IMG/VR virus record: IMGVR_UViG_3300023094_000016
Span: 1-45,289 of that record
Length of the DNA: 45,289 bases
Source: a virus
Direction: 5' to 3' (one strand)
Numbering within the stretch: the first letter of the stretch is position 1; every line of letters begins with the position of its first letter. The notes beneath the pieces were generated by a model. The model searched no databases and had not been told where the DNA came from. It saw only the letters and a list, made by a program, of their open reading frames with translations. This document shows, in pieces, positions 10,947 to 16,197 of the stretch. The position numbers and the translations under genes are program-made.

Positions 10947-11596
10947 CCGACGCTCAAGGTATCCCCCGACTGCAGCTCAAGTCCATCGTGGAAAGAGTGG
11001 AGCGTTTGGAAGCGGAGATCGCTGATCTGAACGCGGACAAGTCCGACATCTACAAGGATGCCCGTGGCAACGGCTTCGACGTGAAGGCAATCAAGAAGGT
11101 CGTGTCGCGGCGCAAGCTCGACGACAACAAGCGCGTCGAGGAAGACGTCGTTTTCGAAACCTACTGGGACGCTATTCACGGAACTGGCCTCGTGCATGCA
11201 CACGCACGAGAAAACATTGAGGAATTTGACGCGGAAACGGGTGAAATCCTCGAAGGGGAGTCCGCAGGTACTGCGTATGGTCTCCCCACCAATCAGCCGG
11301 AAACGGCCCCGGAAGAAGCGGCACCTCACGAGGTTGCCGACGTCAACAGCGTCGAGAGCGTAAGCCCACAGGCTGAAACAGCCGCTACAGGCAGCATCGA
11401 CGCCAACACAGGAGGCGGTCATGTAACCGACGGTCGGAATGCTCAACCAGATCAGGCCGGTGGCCTCGTTCAACGCCCACCGGCCAAACCCCTCCGACCA
11501 CAATGCCGAAACCCCGGCGATCACTGCGGTGGATACGGAAGCACTCATTGCAACTCCTGTGTCCAAGCAGCGAAAGAAATCGAGGTGGCGGCATGA
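10943..11596 (+). CDS. GapR/DUF2312-like nucleoid protein with extended tail
   Basis: Residues 10-75 (LKSIVERVERLEAEIADLNA, DIYKDARGNGFDVKAIKKVV, SRRKLDDNKR) match the GapR/DUF2312 layout: a coiled-coil helix followed by a basic helical pair. GapR is an alphaproteobacterial protein that binds overtwisted A/T-rich DNA ahead of replication and supports topoisomerases. Known GapR is about 90 residues; here some 140 extra residues follow, first acidic and Pro-rich, then Cys/His-rich (CRNPGDHCGGYG, THCNSC, about residues 188-208), perhaps a zinc site. The start overlaps the Cro-like stop by 4 bp. A role in phage replication or host nucleoid take-over is inferred. Confidence 0.72.
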   Translation: MTDAQGIPRLQLKSIVERVERLEAEIADLNADKSDIYKDARGNGFDVKAIKKVVSRRKLDDNKRVEEDVVFETYWDAIHGTGLVHAHARENIEEFDAETGEILEGESAGTAYGLPTNQPETAPEEAAPHEVADVNSVESVSPQAETAATGSIDANTGGGHVTDGRNAQPDQAGGLVQRPPAKPLRPQCRNPGDHCGGYGSTHCNSCVQAAKEIEVAA

Positions 11597-11703
11597 CCCC
11601 CATCCTTCCATCCAATTCAACCGACGCAATGGCCCAACGCGCGATTGAACGCGGCGTCGGGCTCGATCGGAAACAGATTTCAAGACCGGAGAAATTGCCA
11701 TGA
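11593..11703 (+). CDS. Small protein, 36 aa
   Basis: MTPILPSNSTDAMAQRAIER and a short basic tail. GAGGTGG lies 5 bp before the ATG, and the ATG overlaps the upstream stop by 4 bp (ATGA). The stop overlaps the next start in the same way, so this is a convincing coupled mini-gene, though without known function. Confidence 0.5.
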   Translation: MTPILPSNSTDAMAQRAIERGVGLDRKQISRPEKLP

Positions 11704-11795
11704 GTGCATCGCTCATCTTCGCCATTGCCGGCGTAGCTCTTCTCTACATCCCGGCGGTCGCCTTCTTCCTTGGCACCCTCCGATACGCGGATTGA
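11700..11795 (+). CDS. Membrane micropeptide, 31 aa
   Basis: The whole peptide is essentially one hydrophobic helix (MSASLIFAIAGVALLYIPAV, then AFFLGTLRYAD). GGAG is 8 bp upstream, and the start overlaps the 36-aa gene by 4 bp. It could insert in the inner membrane and affect host physiology or superinfection. The function is unknown. Confidence 0.5.
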   Translation: MSASLIFAIAGVALLYIPAVAFFLGTLRYAD

Positions 11796-11820
11796 CGGCG
11801 CGGCACCCCTCCAGGCCCCG

Positions 11821-12063
11821 TCAACGCTGGTCCCGGTCATCCTCCTCCCGGCCGGGACCAGCAACCCTGATCCTCACCCGGTTGTTCTTGAGCCTCATAA
11901 CGACGGCTTGAACGACCGGCCCGAGACTTTCGAAAGGGGCCGACGACAGCGGCGGCATGTCGTCGGCGGCAGGGCGAGGCGGAACGGGTGCCCTGCGAAA
12001 CTGAACAATTTTGTCGTCTTTGGACGGAGTAGAAGATGAAAGCCGAGATTTCCGATCTGACAT
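11821..12063 (-). CDS. Possible antisense small gene, 80 aa
   Basis: A minus-strand frame (MSDRKSRLSSSTPSKDDKIV...) fills the gap between two rightward genes. AAAGGA lies 6 bp before the ATG at 12063. The sequence has a charged Ser-rich start, a Pro-rich middle (RAPVPPRPAADDMPP) and a basic end. It overlaps the 5' end of the AP2-HNH gene by 28 bp. The good ribosome site and lack of any plus-strand gene here favour it, but no family is recognised. Confidence 0.42.
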   Translation of the reverse strand: MSDRKSRLSSSTPSKDDKIVQFRRAPVPPRPAADDMPPLSSAPFESLGPVVQAVVMRLKNNRVRIRVAGPGREEDDRDQR

Positions 12064-12608
12064 ATTCATTCCTTTCAGAGTGCTTCCGCGTCGACGAACG
12101 CCGAGGCGTACTGATCTGGAACGAGCGACCAGAGAAGCATTTTTCTAGCGCCTTGCAGTGCGTTGGGTGGAACAAGATCTTCGCGGGCAAGGATGCCGGC
12201 TGGGTAAAGAACGGTCGGGAAGTCACTAAAATCAGGGAGAGGCAGTTCCAAACGCATCGGCTGATCTATGCGCTCTGGCACCGTATCAACCTGTGCGACG
12301 TGCCAAGAATCCTTGATCACGCTGATGGCAACCCTTTGAACAATCGCCCCTCTAATCTGAGAGAGGCGAGCAAGTTCGAGAACGCCTTCAACGCCCCTCG
12401 ATACGGCCACAACACCAGCGGTTTTAAAGGCGTCTATTTCGACAAGCGAGAGGGCGGTTGGGTGGCCACGATCACAGCATTCAAGGTGAAAATCTATCTT
12501 GGCATCTACGCAACGAAAGCTGAGGCCGGTGCGGCCTACTGCGGGGCGGCTCGAGTCATTCACAAAGATTTCTACCGAGAGAATCAGGAACCAGTTGCGG
12601 CAGCCTGA
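12036..12608 (+). CDS. HNH endonuclease with AP2 DNA-binding domain
   Basis: A 190-residue protein. Residues 60-120 hold an HNH_3-type nuclease (FQTHRLIYALWH, then LDHADGNPLNNRPSNLREAS with the catalytic His-Asp-Asn set). Residues 129-178 form an AP2-like domain (NTSGFKGVYFDKREGGWVAT, then a basic strand and KAEAGAAYCGAARVIHKDFY). Such AP2-HNH proteins are free-standing homing-type endonucleases, common in phages. It interrupts an otherwise coupled early operon and is flanked by non-overlapping spacers, which fits a mobile insertion. The ATG has GGAG upstream. Confidence 0.88.
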   Translation: MKAEISDLTYSFLSECFRVDERRGVLIWNERPEKHFSSALQCVGWNKIFAGKDAGWVKNGREVTKIRERQFQTHRLIYALWHRINLCDVPRILDHADGNPLNNRPSNLREASKFENAFNAPRYGHNTSGFKGVYFDKREGGWVATITAFKVKIYLGIYATKAEAGAAYCGAARVIHKDFYRENQEPVAAA

Positions 12609-12611
12609 GCC

Positions 12612-12656
12612 GGAGAGGGGAGAGTGCTGATTGGCGTCGGCACGTCTTCCCTCTCC
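12612..12656 (+). terminator. Inverted repeat after the AP2-HNH gene
   Basis: GGAGAGGG (12612-12619) pairs perfectly with CCCTCTCC (12649-12656) across a 29-base loop. It starts 3 bases after the stop codon. There is no T-run, so it may be a weak terminator, an mRNA-stabilising hairpin or a border remnant of the inserted gene. Confidence 0.3.
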
Positions 12657-12727
12657 ATCACGATTAATCGTCCTGCGCATCGGCAACTCCTGTGAACAAG
12701 GAGAAGATCGCACAGGAGCAAAACCAC

Positions 12728-13120
12728 ATGTCGGAAAAGTCACCCGGAAATGCGGGGAAACTAAAACAGGGCGTGAGTAAGCGGATGAACGACGTAGCCA
12801 CAGCAAATTTCTTGATCGCGGAGATCGGGGCGAGGCGCCACATCGGCGACATGTTCCGGAATGCCTGCAAGGAGCTGCGCAAGCGCTTCCCTCACAACGA
12901 CGACCCAGAAAACCAATGGACGGAACGCCGCCTGCGGGGGTGGTGGAACAACGAAAGCCGGACGGTGAAGCACTTCCAGATGGTCGAGCTTTTCGAGACG
13001 GCAGAAGCAATACGGGCAGCGAGGACAGAACATGCCGAATACAAAGCCAAGACCGCCGCTCTTCGTCAGATGGCTCAGCTTCGATCGTCGGCACGCGCTG
13101 GCGATGTGGCTCAGAGATAA
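12728..13120 (+). CDS. Hypothetical protein, 130 aa
   Basis: Starts MSEKSPGNAGKLKQGVSKRM. The middle (ARRHIGDMFRNACKELRKRF and WTERRLRGWWNNESRTVKHF) is basic, helical and Trp-rich, compatible with DNA binding. The C-terminus is helical. The ATG at 12728 has AGGAG 10 bp upstream. A GTG start at 12692 would add twelve residues. It lies just before the methyltransferase locus, but its role cannot be read from the sequence. Confidence 0.6.
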   Translation: MSEKSPGNAGKLKQGVSKRMNDVATANFLIAEIGARRHIGDMFRNACKELRKRFPHNDDPENQWTERRLRGWWNNESRTVKHFQMVELFETAEAIRAARTEHAEYKAKTAALRQMAQLRSSARAGDVAQR

Positions 13121-13171
13121 GGCTGCCGGCCTCGCAGAATGGATCTGCCCGGAACTGGTGGAGGAGCAAAA

Positions 13172-14326
13172 GTGAATGTGGCTCTACGTCCCGAACACCT
13201 CAACATCCTCTCCATCTGCACAGGTGGAGCCGGCCTCGATCTCGGCGTCGAGCTGGCAATTCCAAGCGCTCGAACAGTCTGCATGGTGGAGAGGGAAGCC
13301 TTCTCGGTCGCGTCACTGGTGGCAGCGATGGAACAAGGGCTCCTTCATCCGGCTCCTGTGTGGAGTGATGCCAGAACCTTTAACGGCCGAGCATGGCGTG
13401 GCGCAGTGGACGGCCTCATTGGTGGCATCCCGTGCCAGCCTCACAGCCTCGCCGGACGCAAGCAGGGAAGCAACGACGACAGAGACCTCTGGTCGACAGG
13501 TCGCCGCATCATCGTCCAGTCGGGCGCGTGGTTCGTCGTCATCGAAAACGTCAGCGGCATGCTCGCGGCGGGGGCTGACGAAATCGCTGGCGCCGAGCGG
13601 GTTTGCGGAGACCTTCGCAAGCTTGGTTTCCAGGTGGAGGGCGGATTGTTCACGGCGTCAGAAATTGGCGCGAGCCATCAGCGGGAACGCGTCATTATCC
13701 TTGGCGTGGCTGACGCCGTCTGCGAACGAGGATGCAGCTGGGACGGTGGACGGCAAGATGCAGCGCATGCTGACGCATCAGGCCAAGGAAGTGTCGGACC
13801 AGTGGTCGACTCCGAGAGCATCGGACGCGGAGAAGGGCGGACCCAATCAGGCTTTCGGCGCGGGCGGTATTCCTCTGCCGGCTCAAGCGGCTCAATGGGC
13901 AACTCCTCGGGTATCGTCGGAGAGGACATCATCGATCGCGCTGGAGCGACCGGACAGCGTGTCGTCGCTCTCGATCGCCCAGCAGGCGGAAATGGTCATG
14001 GGGGAAGTGCCGCGGGAAATCTATCTTGTGAGCGAGAAGACGCAACGCCGTCTTGGCTTCGACCCCTCTTCGCTCCGGGACCAGCTGACTTATCCAGTTG
14101 GTGCGACACTCTCGCATCCCCGCCGGAGCTTGAACCCGCTTTTCGTCGAGTGGCTGATGGGCTGGCCTCCCGCATGGACATTGGTCGCGTGGACCGACTT
14201 CGCATGCTCGGAAACGGAGTTGTGCCTCTTCAAGCAGCGTATGCGCTCCGCACTCTTGTCACTCGGCTTGCCGCACGAGGCTCCGCCGGCGCAGCTCGCC
14301 TTGTTCGGATGATGGAGGCAGCATGA
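13172..14326 (+). CDS. DNA cytosine-C5 methyltransferase (frame A of an overprinted locus)
   Basis: A 384-residue enzyme from the GTG at 13172, which lies 5 bp after GGAGGAG; an upstream ATG at 13139 has no comparable site. Motif I is ILSICTGGAGLDLG (from residue 12), motif IV is GGIPCQPHS with catalytic Cys88, motif VI is ENV (125-127), motif VIII is HQRERV, and motif X is RLRMLGNGVVP (G347-P352). It would methylate cytosine using SAM, protecting phage DNA or altering regulation. Between motifs VIII and X (about residues 185-300) the sequence is low-complexity Gly/Ser. There frame A has only about 55% G+C at third positions, against about 75% in the catalytic part (hand counts of 100 codons each). 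The whole gene is also open in the +1 frame. Confidence 0.85.
   Translation: MNVALRPEHLNILSICTGGAGLDLGVELAIPSARTVCMVEREAFSVASLVAAMEQGLLHPAPVWSDARTFNGRAWRGAVDGLIGGIPCQPHSLAGRKQGSNDDRDLWSTGRRIIVQSGAWFVVIENVSGMLAAGADEIAGAERVCGDLRKLGFQVEGGLFTASEIGASHQRERVIILGVADAVCERGCSWDGGRQDAAHADASGQGSVGPVVDSESIGRGEGRTQSGFRRGRYSSAGSSGSMGNSSGIVGEDIIDRAGATGQRVVALDRPAGGNGHGGSAAGNLSCEREDATPSWLRPLFAPGPADLSSWCDTLASPPELEPAFRRVADGLASRMDIGRVDRLRMLGNGVVPLQAAYALRTLVTRLAARGSAGAARLVRMMEAA
13176..14312 (+). CDS. Overprinted protein in +1 frame of the methyltransferase gene (frame B)
   Basis: A 378-codon frame lies entirely inside the methyltransferase gene and begins with an ATG 4 bp after its GTG, 9 bp from the same GGAGGAG. 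The product starts MWLYVPNTS and is Ser/Trp-rich. It contains repeated W-[SA]-TPR units (QWSTPRASDAEKGGPNQ at 209-225, QWATPR at 240-245) and LNPLFVEWLMGWPPAWT (319-335). From memory these motifs recur in phage proteins, and LNP...LMGWP recalls the motif IX region (LTPRE...LMGFP) of C5 methyltransferases. Over 13710-14009 frame B has 72% G+C at third positions against 55% for frame A (hand count), so frame B looks like the better-selected frame there. It may be a second protein or the C-terminal part of a frameshift product. Confidence 0.55.
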   Translation: MWLYVPNTSTSSPSAQVEPASISASSWQFQALEQSAWWRGKPSRSRHWWQRWNKGSFIRLLCGVMPEPLTAEHGVAQWTASLVASRASLTASPDASREATTTETSGRQVAASSSSRARGSSSSKTSAACSRRGLTKSLAPSGFAETFASLVSRWRADCSRRQKLARAISGNASLSLAWLTPSANEDAAGTVDGKMQRMLTHQAKEVSDQWSTPRASDAEKGGPNQAFGAGGIPLPAQAAQWATPRVSSERTSSIALERPDSVSSLSIAQQAEMVMGEVPREIYLVSEKTQRRLGFDPSSLRDQLTYPVGATLSHPRRSLNPLFVEWLMGWPPAWTLVAWTDFACSETELCLFKQRMRSALLSLGLPHEAPPAQLALFG

Positions 14327-14502
14327 CCGACGCCCTTACCGACCTCTCCGAAGAGATAAAATTCCTCGACGAGGAGATCCGCGGCCTCAAGGCCCGCACG
14401 ACGGGGAGTGAAACCCAGGTCCACAAGCTCTCGATGCTCACCCGCCTTCGCGAGCGCTGCGAGCGTTCCAAGCAGGCGATAGAGCGGAAGGCAGGGCAAT
14501 GA
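14323..14502 (+). CDS. Small coiled-coil protein, 59 aa
   Basis: A highly charged helical protein (MTDALTDLSEEIKFLDEEIR, ending with KQAIERKAGQ). The start overlaps the cytosine methyltransferase stop by 4 bp (ATGA) and the stop overlaps the start of the next methyltransferase by 4 bp, so it is translated with both. It might be an adaptor or dimerisation factor, but no family is recognised. Confidence 0.6.
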   Translation: MTDALTDLSEEIKFLDEEIRGLKARTTGSETQVHKLSMLTRLRERCERSKQAIERKAGQ

Positions 14503-15662
14503 TCGAAACCAGAACACTCCTCGACGGCCGCTGCACCATGCTTGTCGGCGATTGCATCGACGCAATGCGTTCCATGCCGGCGAACTCTGTCGATTGCGTC
14601 GTCACGTCGCCGCCCTACTGGGGACTTCGCGATTATGGTGTCGCAGGCCAGATCGGGCTTGAACCGACGCTCGCCGAGCATCTGCAGGTCATGGTGCAGG
14701 TGTTCCAAGAAGTTCGCCGAATCCTGAAGCCGCAGGGAACGCTCTGGCTGAACTACGGCGACTGCTATGCCACCACGCCGAATGGTAAGTCGGCCGCTGC
14801 ATACAAAGCCGACGGTTCTGACGATCGCACTTTCCGTGACAAACCTTTCTCGACAATCGGCGGCGCGCTGAAGCCTAAGGATCTATGCATGATCCCGAAC
14901 CGGCTGGCGATCGCCCTGCAGGAGGACGGCTGGTACGTTCGATCCGAGATCATCTGGCACAAGCCCAATCCCATGCCGGAATCGGTCTATGACCGCCCGA
15001 CCTCGTCACATGAGAAGATCTGGCTGCTGACGAAGGGCGAGGACTACTTCTACGATCACGAGGCCATTCGCGAGCCAGTGAGCGGTACCGCTCACGCCCG
15101 CAAGCCTGGCCCGAACAGCCGACAGAACGTCGACCGCGTTCCTCGATCGAGAAAAGGCAGCTCCGGCGTAGGCTGGGGCCGTCTCGACAAGATCAATCCG
15201 GGCGAAACCGATCGAGGCCGTGACCGTATTGTCTCGAAGATGGCGGACGAGAGCGATCCCTTCAGGAAGTCGAAGCCATCCTTCGCAGCATCGACCGGCG
15301 ACCTCGTCGAAACGAAGAACGCCCGCAACGTCTGGACTATCGCTCCAAAGGCGTTCCGCGAGGCGCATTTTGCGACGTTCCCGCCGGCGCTGGCCGAGCG
15401 TTGCATAAAAGCTGGAACACCGAAAACCATCTGCTCATGCTGTGGAGCCGTTGAAGGCTGTGGCCTGATCTGTGAGGTGTTCGGCCGAGAGCCTGGCGTC
15501 GTCTTCGATCCTTTCGGCGGCGCCGGCACGGTCTCGCTCGTAGCTGAGCAGCTTGGGCTCCGATCCATCATGGTCGAGTTGAACCCTGAATATGCTGAAA
15601 TCGCTGAGCGCCGGATAACGGGCGTGCCCATCCCGATCGAGACGGAAGGAGAGGCAGCATGA
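14499..15662 (+). CDS. DNA N4-cytosine/N6-adenine methyltransferase
   Basis: A 387-residue amino-methyltransferase. The catalytic motif TSPPYW (S37-Y40) precedes the SAM-binding DPFGGAGT (337-344), the beta-type order. SPPY is compatible with N4-cytosine or N6-adenine methylation. A long insert (about residues 190-290) would hold the target-recognition domain, and CSCCG (about residues 312-318) may bind zinc. It is coupled to the 59-aa gene and followed by a nuclease gene (VRR-NUC), but no matched restriction enzyme is evident, so an orphan protective or regulatory enzyme is most likely. Confidence 0.9.
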   Translation: MIETRTLLDGRCTMLVGDCIDAMRSMPANSVDCVVTSPPYWGLRDYGVAGQIGLEPTLAEHLQVMVQVFQEVRRILKPQGTLWLNYGDCYATTPNGKSAAAYKADGSDDRTFRDKPFSTIGGALKPKDLCMIPNRLAIALQEDGWYVRSEIIWHKPNPMPESVYDRPTSSHEKIWLLTKGEDYFYDHEAIREPVSGTAHARKPGPNSRQNVDRVPRSRKGSSGVGWGRLDKINPGETDRGRDRIVSKMADESDPFRKSKPSFAASTGDLVETKNARNVWTIAPKAFREAHFATFPPALAERCIKAGTPKTICSCCGAVEGCGLICEVFGREPGVVFDPFGGAGTVSLVAEQLGLRSIMVELNPEYAEIAERRITGVPIPIETEGEAA

Positions 15663-15880
15663 CCTTTTCCGAAGCCTACGCCATCCACGGTCCTGATGTT
15701 GAGGCAATCGCCGATGCACTCGGTATCGCGCCACCAGTCGCTGATAGCTTGATCAATGCCGAACTCACCAAGCGTCACCATGACCGCCTGAAGGAAGAGA
15801 AGCGCCGGACAGCGCAGCGCGATCATATGCGGCGCGTCCGGTCTGATCTGCGCGCCATGCGCGCCGGGAGGTCCGCATGA
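15659..15880 (+). CDS. Hypothetical protein, 73 aa
   Basis: The first half (MTFSEAYAIHGPDVEAIADAL then GIAPPVADSLINAEL) reads like a short helix-turn-helix, and the second half is very basic (KRHHDRLKEEKRRTAQRDHM). This is probably a small nucleic-acid-binding protein. It has 4-bp overlaps on both sides. Confidence 0.6.
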   Translation: MTFSEAYAIHGPDVEAIADALGIAPPVADSLINAELTKRHHDRLKEEKRRTAQRDHMRRVRSDLRAMRAGRSA

Positions 15881-16197
15881 AGGAAAGCCAGATCCACAAG
15901 GCTGTCGTCGCGCACTGGAAGGCTCTTGCCCTGCCTGGGACACTCGTTGCCACCATCCCGAACATGGGAGCCATGGGCCAGCACGGGCTTACCAAAGGAC
16001 TGCCGGACCTGATCCTGATCGGGCCTGAAATGCACGGCTATCTGGAACTCAAGACAGAGACCGGGAAGCTCACGGGACCGCAGCGCGACTTTCAGTCCAT
16101 CTGCATCGCCAGAGGGATTCCGTTCTACGTCACATATGGCCGCGACCAGCCTATTCAGCTGCTCGAAGAACTTGGGCTCGTCAGGAGGGCTGCATAG
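15877..16197 (+). CDS. VRR-NUC domain nuclease
   Basis: A compact 106-residue VRR-NUC protein, a PD-(D/E)xK nuclease family often linked to phage replication, recombination or junction processing. It shows the N-terminal ESQIHKAVVAHWKALALPG, NMGAMGQHGLTKGLPDLILI with the catalytic Asp, YLELKTETGKLTGPQ with the ExK pair, and the C-terminal FQSICIARGIPFYVTYG. It ends in TAGTG, overlapping the next start by one base. Confidence 0.88.
   Translation: MKESQIHKAVVAHWKALALPGTLVATIPNMGAMGQHGLTKGLPDLILIGPEMHGYLELKTETGKLTGPQRDFQSICIARGIPFYVTYGRDQPIQLLEELGLVRRAA

Follow-up and report, generated by a model that had tools for sequence, protein, structure and literature searches.

Organization of the locus

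The window discussed here, the whole stretch of DNA that was analyzed, is a virus record of 45,289 bases. Two long reading frames lie over each other on its plus strand. Frame A, the putative alpha gene, runs from a GTG at 13172 to a stop codon at 14324 to 14326 (13172 to 14326, 384 aa) and carries the large domain of a C5 cytosine methyltransferase (motifs I to VIII and X). Frame B, the putative beta gene, is offset by +1 and extends from an ATG at 13176 to a stop codon at 14310 to 14312 (13176 to 14312, 378 aa); it is wholly nested in frame A and amounts to 98% of its length. A single Shine-Dalgarno sequence, GGAGGAG (13160 to 13166, plus strand), is placed for both starts. The region from 13160 to 13178 reads GGAGGAG-CAAAA-GTGAATG, in which the twin start GTGAATG (13172 to 13178, plus strand) holds the GTG of A and the ATG of B, 4 nt apart. 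Coordinates and sequence confirm what a sequence-only reading of this DNA had described, namely two same-strand frames behind one Shine-Dalgarno sequence with starts 4 nt apart. The TGA at 13173 to 13175, within GTGAATG, ends a short upstream frame in the register of B. A second A-frame start codon, an ATG, lies upstream at 13139 and would lengthen A to 395 aa; we took GTG 13172 as the start because the twin start is conserved.

A start codon for B is present in 87/87 loci in which B aligns from residue 1 or 2 and there is room upstream, near-identical copies being kept in this count (71 ATG, 10 GTG, and 6 TTG), and the Trp that follows it (W2) is invariant in 82 sequences. An A-frame start lies within 5 nt of the B start in all 87 loci. 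It is 4 nt upstream, as in the window, in 53 of them, and the remaining 34 have an A-frame start codon 2 or 5 nt downstream, with a reversed order of the starts in some of these, including ATGACATGG forms. The A-frame GTG at +2 follows automatically from ATGTGG, so the twin-start count is partly trivial and the informative forms are those at -4 and +5.

The surroundings include an HNH endonuclease-like gene (12036 to 12608; phrog_99, 1.1e-43), a second DNA methyltransferase gene directly downstream (14499 to 15662; phrog_67, 8.7e-69), and a small endonuclease-like gene (15877 to 16197; phrog_93 endonuclease, 3.8e-7). Ten neighbors were scanned, and neither of the two endonuclease-like genes was identified as one. 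Promoter and terminator scans of 11500 to 15700 gave nothing above shuffled sequences.

Frame A

Frame A matches Pfam PF00145 at 1e-21 over residues 22 to 190 of the 395-aa form, i.e., in its first half only. Motifs I to VIII, delimited by the profile match and by invariant and near-invariant columns, occupy 13196 to 13720 on the plus strand (A residues 9 to 183) and include the PCQ of motif IV (13430 to 13438) and the ENV of motif VI (13544 to 13552). Residues 190 to 300 (13739 to 14071) make up a low-complexity linker that is predicted to be unstructured, with block-mean pLDDT values of 35 to 55. Motif X, GNGVVP, is found beyond the linker in the same frame (14210 to 14227, A347 to A352), and its residues G347, N348, and V350 do not vary among 82 A sequences.

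The AF2 model of A has a mean pLDDT of 71.9 and a pTM of 0.63 overall, with block means of 81 to 97 over residues 11 to 180 (64 at 91 to 100) and of 95 to 98 over residues 351 to 380; the helix after motif X is confidently modeled. Superposition of this model on M.HhaI gave a Z score of 21.0 and an rmsd of 2.3 for 198 residues, between A 8 to 379 and HhaI 10 to 324. Only the first and last aligned residues are reported by the superposition, and we read it as probably covering the large domain, including the helix after motif X, without the small domain. Alpha therefore has several marks of a C5 methyltransferase in one chain: motifs I to VIII with PCQ and ENV, a SAM-binding fold, and motif X. 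A search with a motif IX profile found no motif IX in frame A, and the small domain of such an enzyme is missing from this chain. PADLOC models match A, the best 25 matches listed all falling within about residues 19 to 203, and none of them matches frame B.

Frame B

Frame B has no match in Pfam or NCBIfam. A Pfam scan of 82 B sequences returned nine families with one member each, all weak, and a sequence search of solved structures gave only an insignificant match (E 2.2). B does match phrog_27243 (labeled "unknown") and phrog_1008 ("DNA methyltransferase"), the latter matched by all 80 B sequences scanned. With the 82-row profile, phage coat protein appeared in two weak matches (best E 0.048), which we regard as chance. 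The AF2 model of B has a mean pLDDT of 62.1 and a pTM of 0.30 and is good only over approximately residues 21 to 90 and part of a helix at 147 to 169. In the fold search, B had no PDB match and no significant match in BFVD (best E 1.4).

Three regions can be recognized along B, all on the plus strand. The N-terminal domain (B residues 20 to 90; 13233 to 13445) is helical and rich in Trp and Arg, with block-mean pLDDT values of 71 to 95 over residues 21 to 90. The second region, of target-recognition type (B residues 178 to 310; 13707 to 14105), contains the W-x-TP repeats WLTPSA, WSTPRA, and WATPRV. The third is motif IX (RSLNPLFVEWLMGWPPAWT, 14124 to 14180). Frame B includes the stretch LNPLFVEWLMGWP, which fits motif IX. 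These repeats and LNPLFVEWLMGWP in frame B, and GNGVVP in frame A, had been pointed out from the sequence alone, and all are present in the translations.

The assignment of the C-terminal half of B leans on mycobacteriophage Estave1 gp75, a monomeric protein with motifs I to VIII, two TP repeats, AFPEWMMGWPAGWV, and GNGVVP in one frame, the TP repeats lying between motifs VIII and X. The A profile aligns to its residues 2 to 161, and the B profile gives a 37-column match at a TP repeat (95.7%). The B motif IX profile, a separate small profile whose E-values refer to a one-sequence search, finds the same motif in frame at residues 316 to 329, just before motif X at 337 to 361. Given motif IX and the repeats, and where these lie in Estave1, we infer that the C-terminal half of B would be a folded recognition/small domain. 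The profile of the B N-terminal domain had no significant match in Estave1 gp75, in gp56 of Paenibacillus phage Shelly, or in the beta sequence from Sporomusa.

Stop codons in frame B

In tblastn searches, two Synechococcus phages matched B along its entire 378 residues with 52% identity. Relatives of B were found in 212 viral contigs; we retained the 80 best, which are mostly full length and reach down to approximately 30% identity. The B alignment kept 82 sequences and then 80. Among the conditions that the sequence-only reading had set against its two-frame interpretation was a frame B broken by stops in most close relatives. Frame B is not broken in this way. Among 42 nonidentical relatives retrieved with A, which are a fairer test of openness than loci chosen by B, 40 have no internal +1 stop between the B start and the last approximately 30 codons of A; here, as in the motif-layout count of 156 loci given below, identical copies were counted once and near-identical ones retained. 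Four of the 40 open relatives have a GC content of only 44 to 46%, and their +2 frame contains 16 to 22 stops. The exceptions are the distant locus L044 and L026, with one stop. In L026 the middle repeats of B are also missing, and frame A is still open.

Synonymous reshuffling of frame A gave a measure of how many stops should be seen. In 75 loci, chosen partly by B for near-full B matches, the +1 frame has no stop over A21 to A180, compared to 191 to 264 expected, and 3 over A301 to A372, compared to 82 to 100 expected. Across relatives this signal is very strong; for the window alone it is modest, the +1 frame over A21 to A180 staying open in 1.3 to 4.5% of reshufflings. As a control we used the terminase gene, for which 57 loci were fetched and 54 (that of the window and 53 relatives) were used after short, stopped, and ambiguous ones were dropped; their +1 frames contain 882 stops, compared to 933 expected, and 0/54 are open for 340 codons. 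The flanking genes yielded no control family of at least 10 members, and the head-tail gene gave one relative.

Selection on the two frames

The silent sites of A were compared in 16 diverged loci, with uniformity judged against the codon use of each gene itself. Among 132 A columns, 52 are over-uniform at p<0.01 and 36 at p<0.001, and the frozen sites are concentrated at A46 to A95 (13/25), A186 to A300 (12/20), and A301 to A335 (8/15). The silent sites of A are frozen where B depends on these positions. At A62, for example, the third base is T in 16/16 loci and B always has Leu, and at A82 the residue in A is Val, Leu, or Ile while B has Ser throughout. Two terminase sets were drawn from 55 sequences, namely the first 16 under 70% identity and 12 under 60%. 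The 16 sequences, with a mean identity of 0.53, gave 7/142 columns at p<0.01 and none at p<0.001, and the more diverged 12 gave 5/136 and 1, respectively.

Codon phase and substitution ratios show how the two frames share the gene. A is coding-like over residues 21 to 185, and over residues 186 to 285 the third position of B is the fastest. For A, dNN/dSN over A186 to A300 is 0.94, compared to 0.23 in control genes, in a stretch that is hard to align; by this measure A residues 186 to 300 appear nearly unconstrained. The dSN/dSS ratio, a test for B, ranges from 0.33 to 0.73 and is below the control value of 0.79, which comes from few sites, in 8/8 windows. A second test for B, dNN/dNS, is below the control of 0.69 in five of eight windows and above it in three (0.74 at A46 to A95, 0.80 at A96 to A140, and 0.78 at A186 to A300). 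The pairwise test of four-fold sites over A20 to A178 gave differences of 0.36 to 0.51, compared to 0.34 to 0.50 in noisy controls, and so no clear constraint on B. Conservation in excess of expectation is modestly higher in the +1 than in the +2 frame, with eight of 10 windows higher, one tied, and one lower.

Synonymous-rate tests for each frame, which the sequence-only reading had suggested, thus point to constraint on both, with mixed outcomes in the four-fold, +1/+2, and dNN/dNS comparisons. Its hand counts of third-position G+C were reproduced in part: we also find 55% for A in 13709 to 14008 and 72% for B in 13710 to 14009, but its 75% for A in the "catalytic region" became 68% when recomputed over 13172 to 13708. 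Its suggestion that selection seems to switch frame holds insofar as A dominates over motifs I to VIII and B over A186 to A300; it does not hold for the N-terminal part of B, which is also constrained, most clearly at A46 to A95. Judged from these alignments, purifying selection is detectable in both frames and graded along the gene, as dual coding requires, and we regard the conserved dual coding as real.

Motif layout among relatives

The division of motifs seen in the window, with motif IX in the +1 frame and motif X in frame 0, recurs in 148/156 nonidentical loci, most of them relatives retrieved by searches with A or B, alongside named records selected for a match to A or B, and in 41/42 of the subset retrieved with A. 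The sequence-only reading had placed a motif IX-like sequence in frame B and motif X in frame A; that observation was borne out and proved to be the key to the locus. In 144 of the 152 loci with motif IX in +1, the +1 frame extends without a stop at least as far upstream as the point where the alpha profile match begins, in most cases motif I. There are 874 phage records that match A, and the layout was read in 16 named ones. Named hosts of the layout include Synechococcus, Acidovorax, Tunturiibacter, Paenibacillus, Vibrio, Klebsiella, and Escherichia, and it also occurs in Rhizobiales genomes. Plasmid searches returned two records matching B and six matching the nested gene of Shelly.

The eight exceptions are of several kinds. 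L044 and L181 have both IX and X in the +1 frame. L094 and L137 have IX in +2 and X in +1, both frames being displaced within the repeat region; these two are metagenome-derived, and the displacement is either decay or sequencing error. In L175 and L176, motif IX is in +1 and motif X falls below the profile threshold, with GNAVNP in frame 0 in both. L180 is monomeric, and L184 gave no motif IX.

Comparison with described systems

The closest likeness is to M.EcoHK31I, a two-polypeptide C5 methyltransferase that modifies YGGCCR. Lee et al. are said to have reported in 1995 that the coding sequence of its small subunit (176 aa) lies within that of the large subunit (309 aa) in another frame. The window has nesting of this reported type, with 13176 to 14312 inside 13172 to 14326 in the +1 frame. 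Its beta chain, however, is 378 aa long and starts 4 nt from the start of alpha, unlike the internal start reported for M.EcoHK31I, and it has a conserved N-terminal domain over the motifs of alpha. According to PMC3404938, the large subunit of M.EcoHK31I contains motifs I to VIII and X plus a predicted recognition domain, the small subunit contains motif IX only, and the small subunit of M.AquI has both IX and X. By that description, M.EcoHK31I resembles the window, known from its reading frames only, in having IX alone in the second chain and X in the first. The recognition repeats of the window are in beta, whereas the recognition domain of M.EcoHK31I is predicted, in the same source, to be in the large subunit, which counts against the likeness. 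The likeness is one of motif division.

M.AquI (CYCGRG) is like the window in forming one C5 enzyme from two chains. The presence of both IX and X in its small subunit, as described in PMC3404938, has no counterpart in the window, where motif X is in frame A. L044, whose sequence also occurs in a Sporomusa genome (L138), and gp81/gp80 of mycobacteriophage JewelBug look AquI-like, with IX and X in +1. Paenibacillus phage Shelly has gp55 and gp56 (annotated "g55 internal gene"), a pair that resembles the window: the nested +1 gene carries TP repeats and motif IX, and motif X is in the outer gene. Unlike that of the window, the nested gene of Shelly begins at an ATG within the outer gene, preceded by GGGAGG at a distance of 12 nt, and it has no match to the N-terminal domain of the window's beta. 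The monomeric, AquI-like, nested, and full-overlap forms look like stages of one series that could run in either direction.

Another overlap has been described in Streptococcus thermophilus phages of the 5093 group, where, in PMC5601072, C5 methyltransferase frames are reported to overlap totally in different frames, with a similar overlap in pneumococcal phage MM1 and the conjugative transposon Tn5252. The methyltransferase frame of 5093 and of MM1 contains both motif IX (LTPRECWRLQGFP) and motif X. From these sequences the methyltransferase looks monomeric, and since IX and X share a frame there, the overlap would be of another kind than that in the window. Phage 5093 (L186, 6067 to 7026) has a different +1 frame that covers part of the gene, and in MM1 (L187, 7480 to 8637) a partial +1 frame is annotated as MM1p15; both of these frames are unlike frame B. 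Within the open-licence literature, to which our search was confined, we found no account of phage-wide nested alpha/beta C5 enzymes, and M.EcoHK31I was mentioned only in passing. What is new relative to M.EcoHK31I is the near-complete overlap, the twin starts, the conservation of an N-terminal domain in beta, and the distribution across phages.

A candidate split methyltransferase

The conservation of both frames, the assignment of motifs to frames, and the fold of the alpha large domain were computed directly. Together with the comparative sequence evidence, they make it likely, in our judgment, that the product of this locus is a C5-cytosine DNA methyltransferase of two subunits, alpha coming from frame A and beta from frame B, that works like M.EcoHK31I. 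Alpha would be the large catalytic domain, with motifs I to VIII and with motif X packed onto it, and beta would be the target-reading small domain, including motif IX, together with an additional N-terminal domain. Along the gene, the small domain falls between motifs VIII and X; here its place would be kept, but in the +1 frame, over the featureless linker of alpha. One ribosome-binding site and twin starts 4 nt apart would allow both subunits to be made, and pairing of alpha and beta would give the active enzyme. Such an enzyme would most likely be an orphan methyltransferase of the phage, giving protection against host restriction.

A functionally unrelated beta, for example an anti-restriction or regulatory protein grown from overprinting of a complete monomeric methyltransferase, would agree with the absence of Pfam, NCBIfam, or significant PDB matches for B and of significant matches to its N-terminal profile in Estave1 gp75, Shelly gp56, and the Sporomusa beta. 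We nonetheless consider this improbable, since A has neither motif IX in its own frame nor a structured small domain, A186 to A300 appear nearly unconstrained, and B bears motif IX as well as the repeats found between motifs VIII and X of Estave1. The view that B is an accidental open frame produced by G+C-rich codon usage draws on the 1.3 to 4.5% probability of an open N-terminal half in the window alone; we give it almost no credence, in view of zero stops against 191 to 264 expected, openness kept at 44 to 46% GC, and a freezing of silent bases that has no equivalent in the terminase control. Unless the alignments are systematically wrong, the reshuffling, the A-retrieved set, and the terminase control together rule out a chance open frame.

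The sequence-only reading had offered two products of the locus: two proteins, which the comparative evidence strongly supports, or a frameshift chimera, which we do not favor. In the latter case programmed frameshifting would fuse the catalytic part of A to the recognition part of B in one chain. The junction after motif VIII is a sensible fusion site, and C5 enzymes are usually single chains, as stated in PMC3404938; such a fusion would, however, be without motif X unless a second shift occurred. The start of B is beside that of A in 87/87 loci and is directly followed by conserved residues, W2 being invariant, and the internal beta start of Shelly has the Shine-Dalgarno-like GGGAGG. The start codon in all 87 loci and the internal start of Shelly make separate initiation the more economical reading, and we regard frameshifting as very unlikely.

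The split two-subunit enzyme may also be one case of something broader, a view to which we incline only slightly. Obligate two-subunit C5 methyltransferases with 98% overlap of alpha and beta would then form a class that is widespread among phages, in which the small domain is in the other frame, the large domain and motif X are in one chain, and twin starts set the subunit ratio. The N-terminal domain of beta would be a possible new fold or docking module, and the layouts would form one evolutionary series.

Annotation of the overlapping genes

Approximately 1.1 kb of DNA holds two constrained frames that seem to be the halves of one enzyme, a rare case of an overprinted gene with a partner that can be identified and tested. 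If this is correct, many phage entries named "DNA methyltransferase" are half an enzyme and would give a dead protein when cloned alone. The locus could serve as a test bed for the evolution of overlapping genes and for the role of beta as a distinct specificity subunit. Current annotation hides the arrangement, usually giving one gene only. Both frames are recognizable in 11 of 14 named records, the other three being monomeric, split, or undecided. These 11 are L125, L126, L127, L175 to L179, L182, L183, and L185, the last taken from an incomplete plasmid gene table. Both frames are annotated in one of them, Shelly, and a single frame in the remaining 10 (A in five and B in five).
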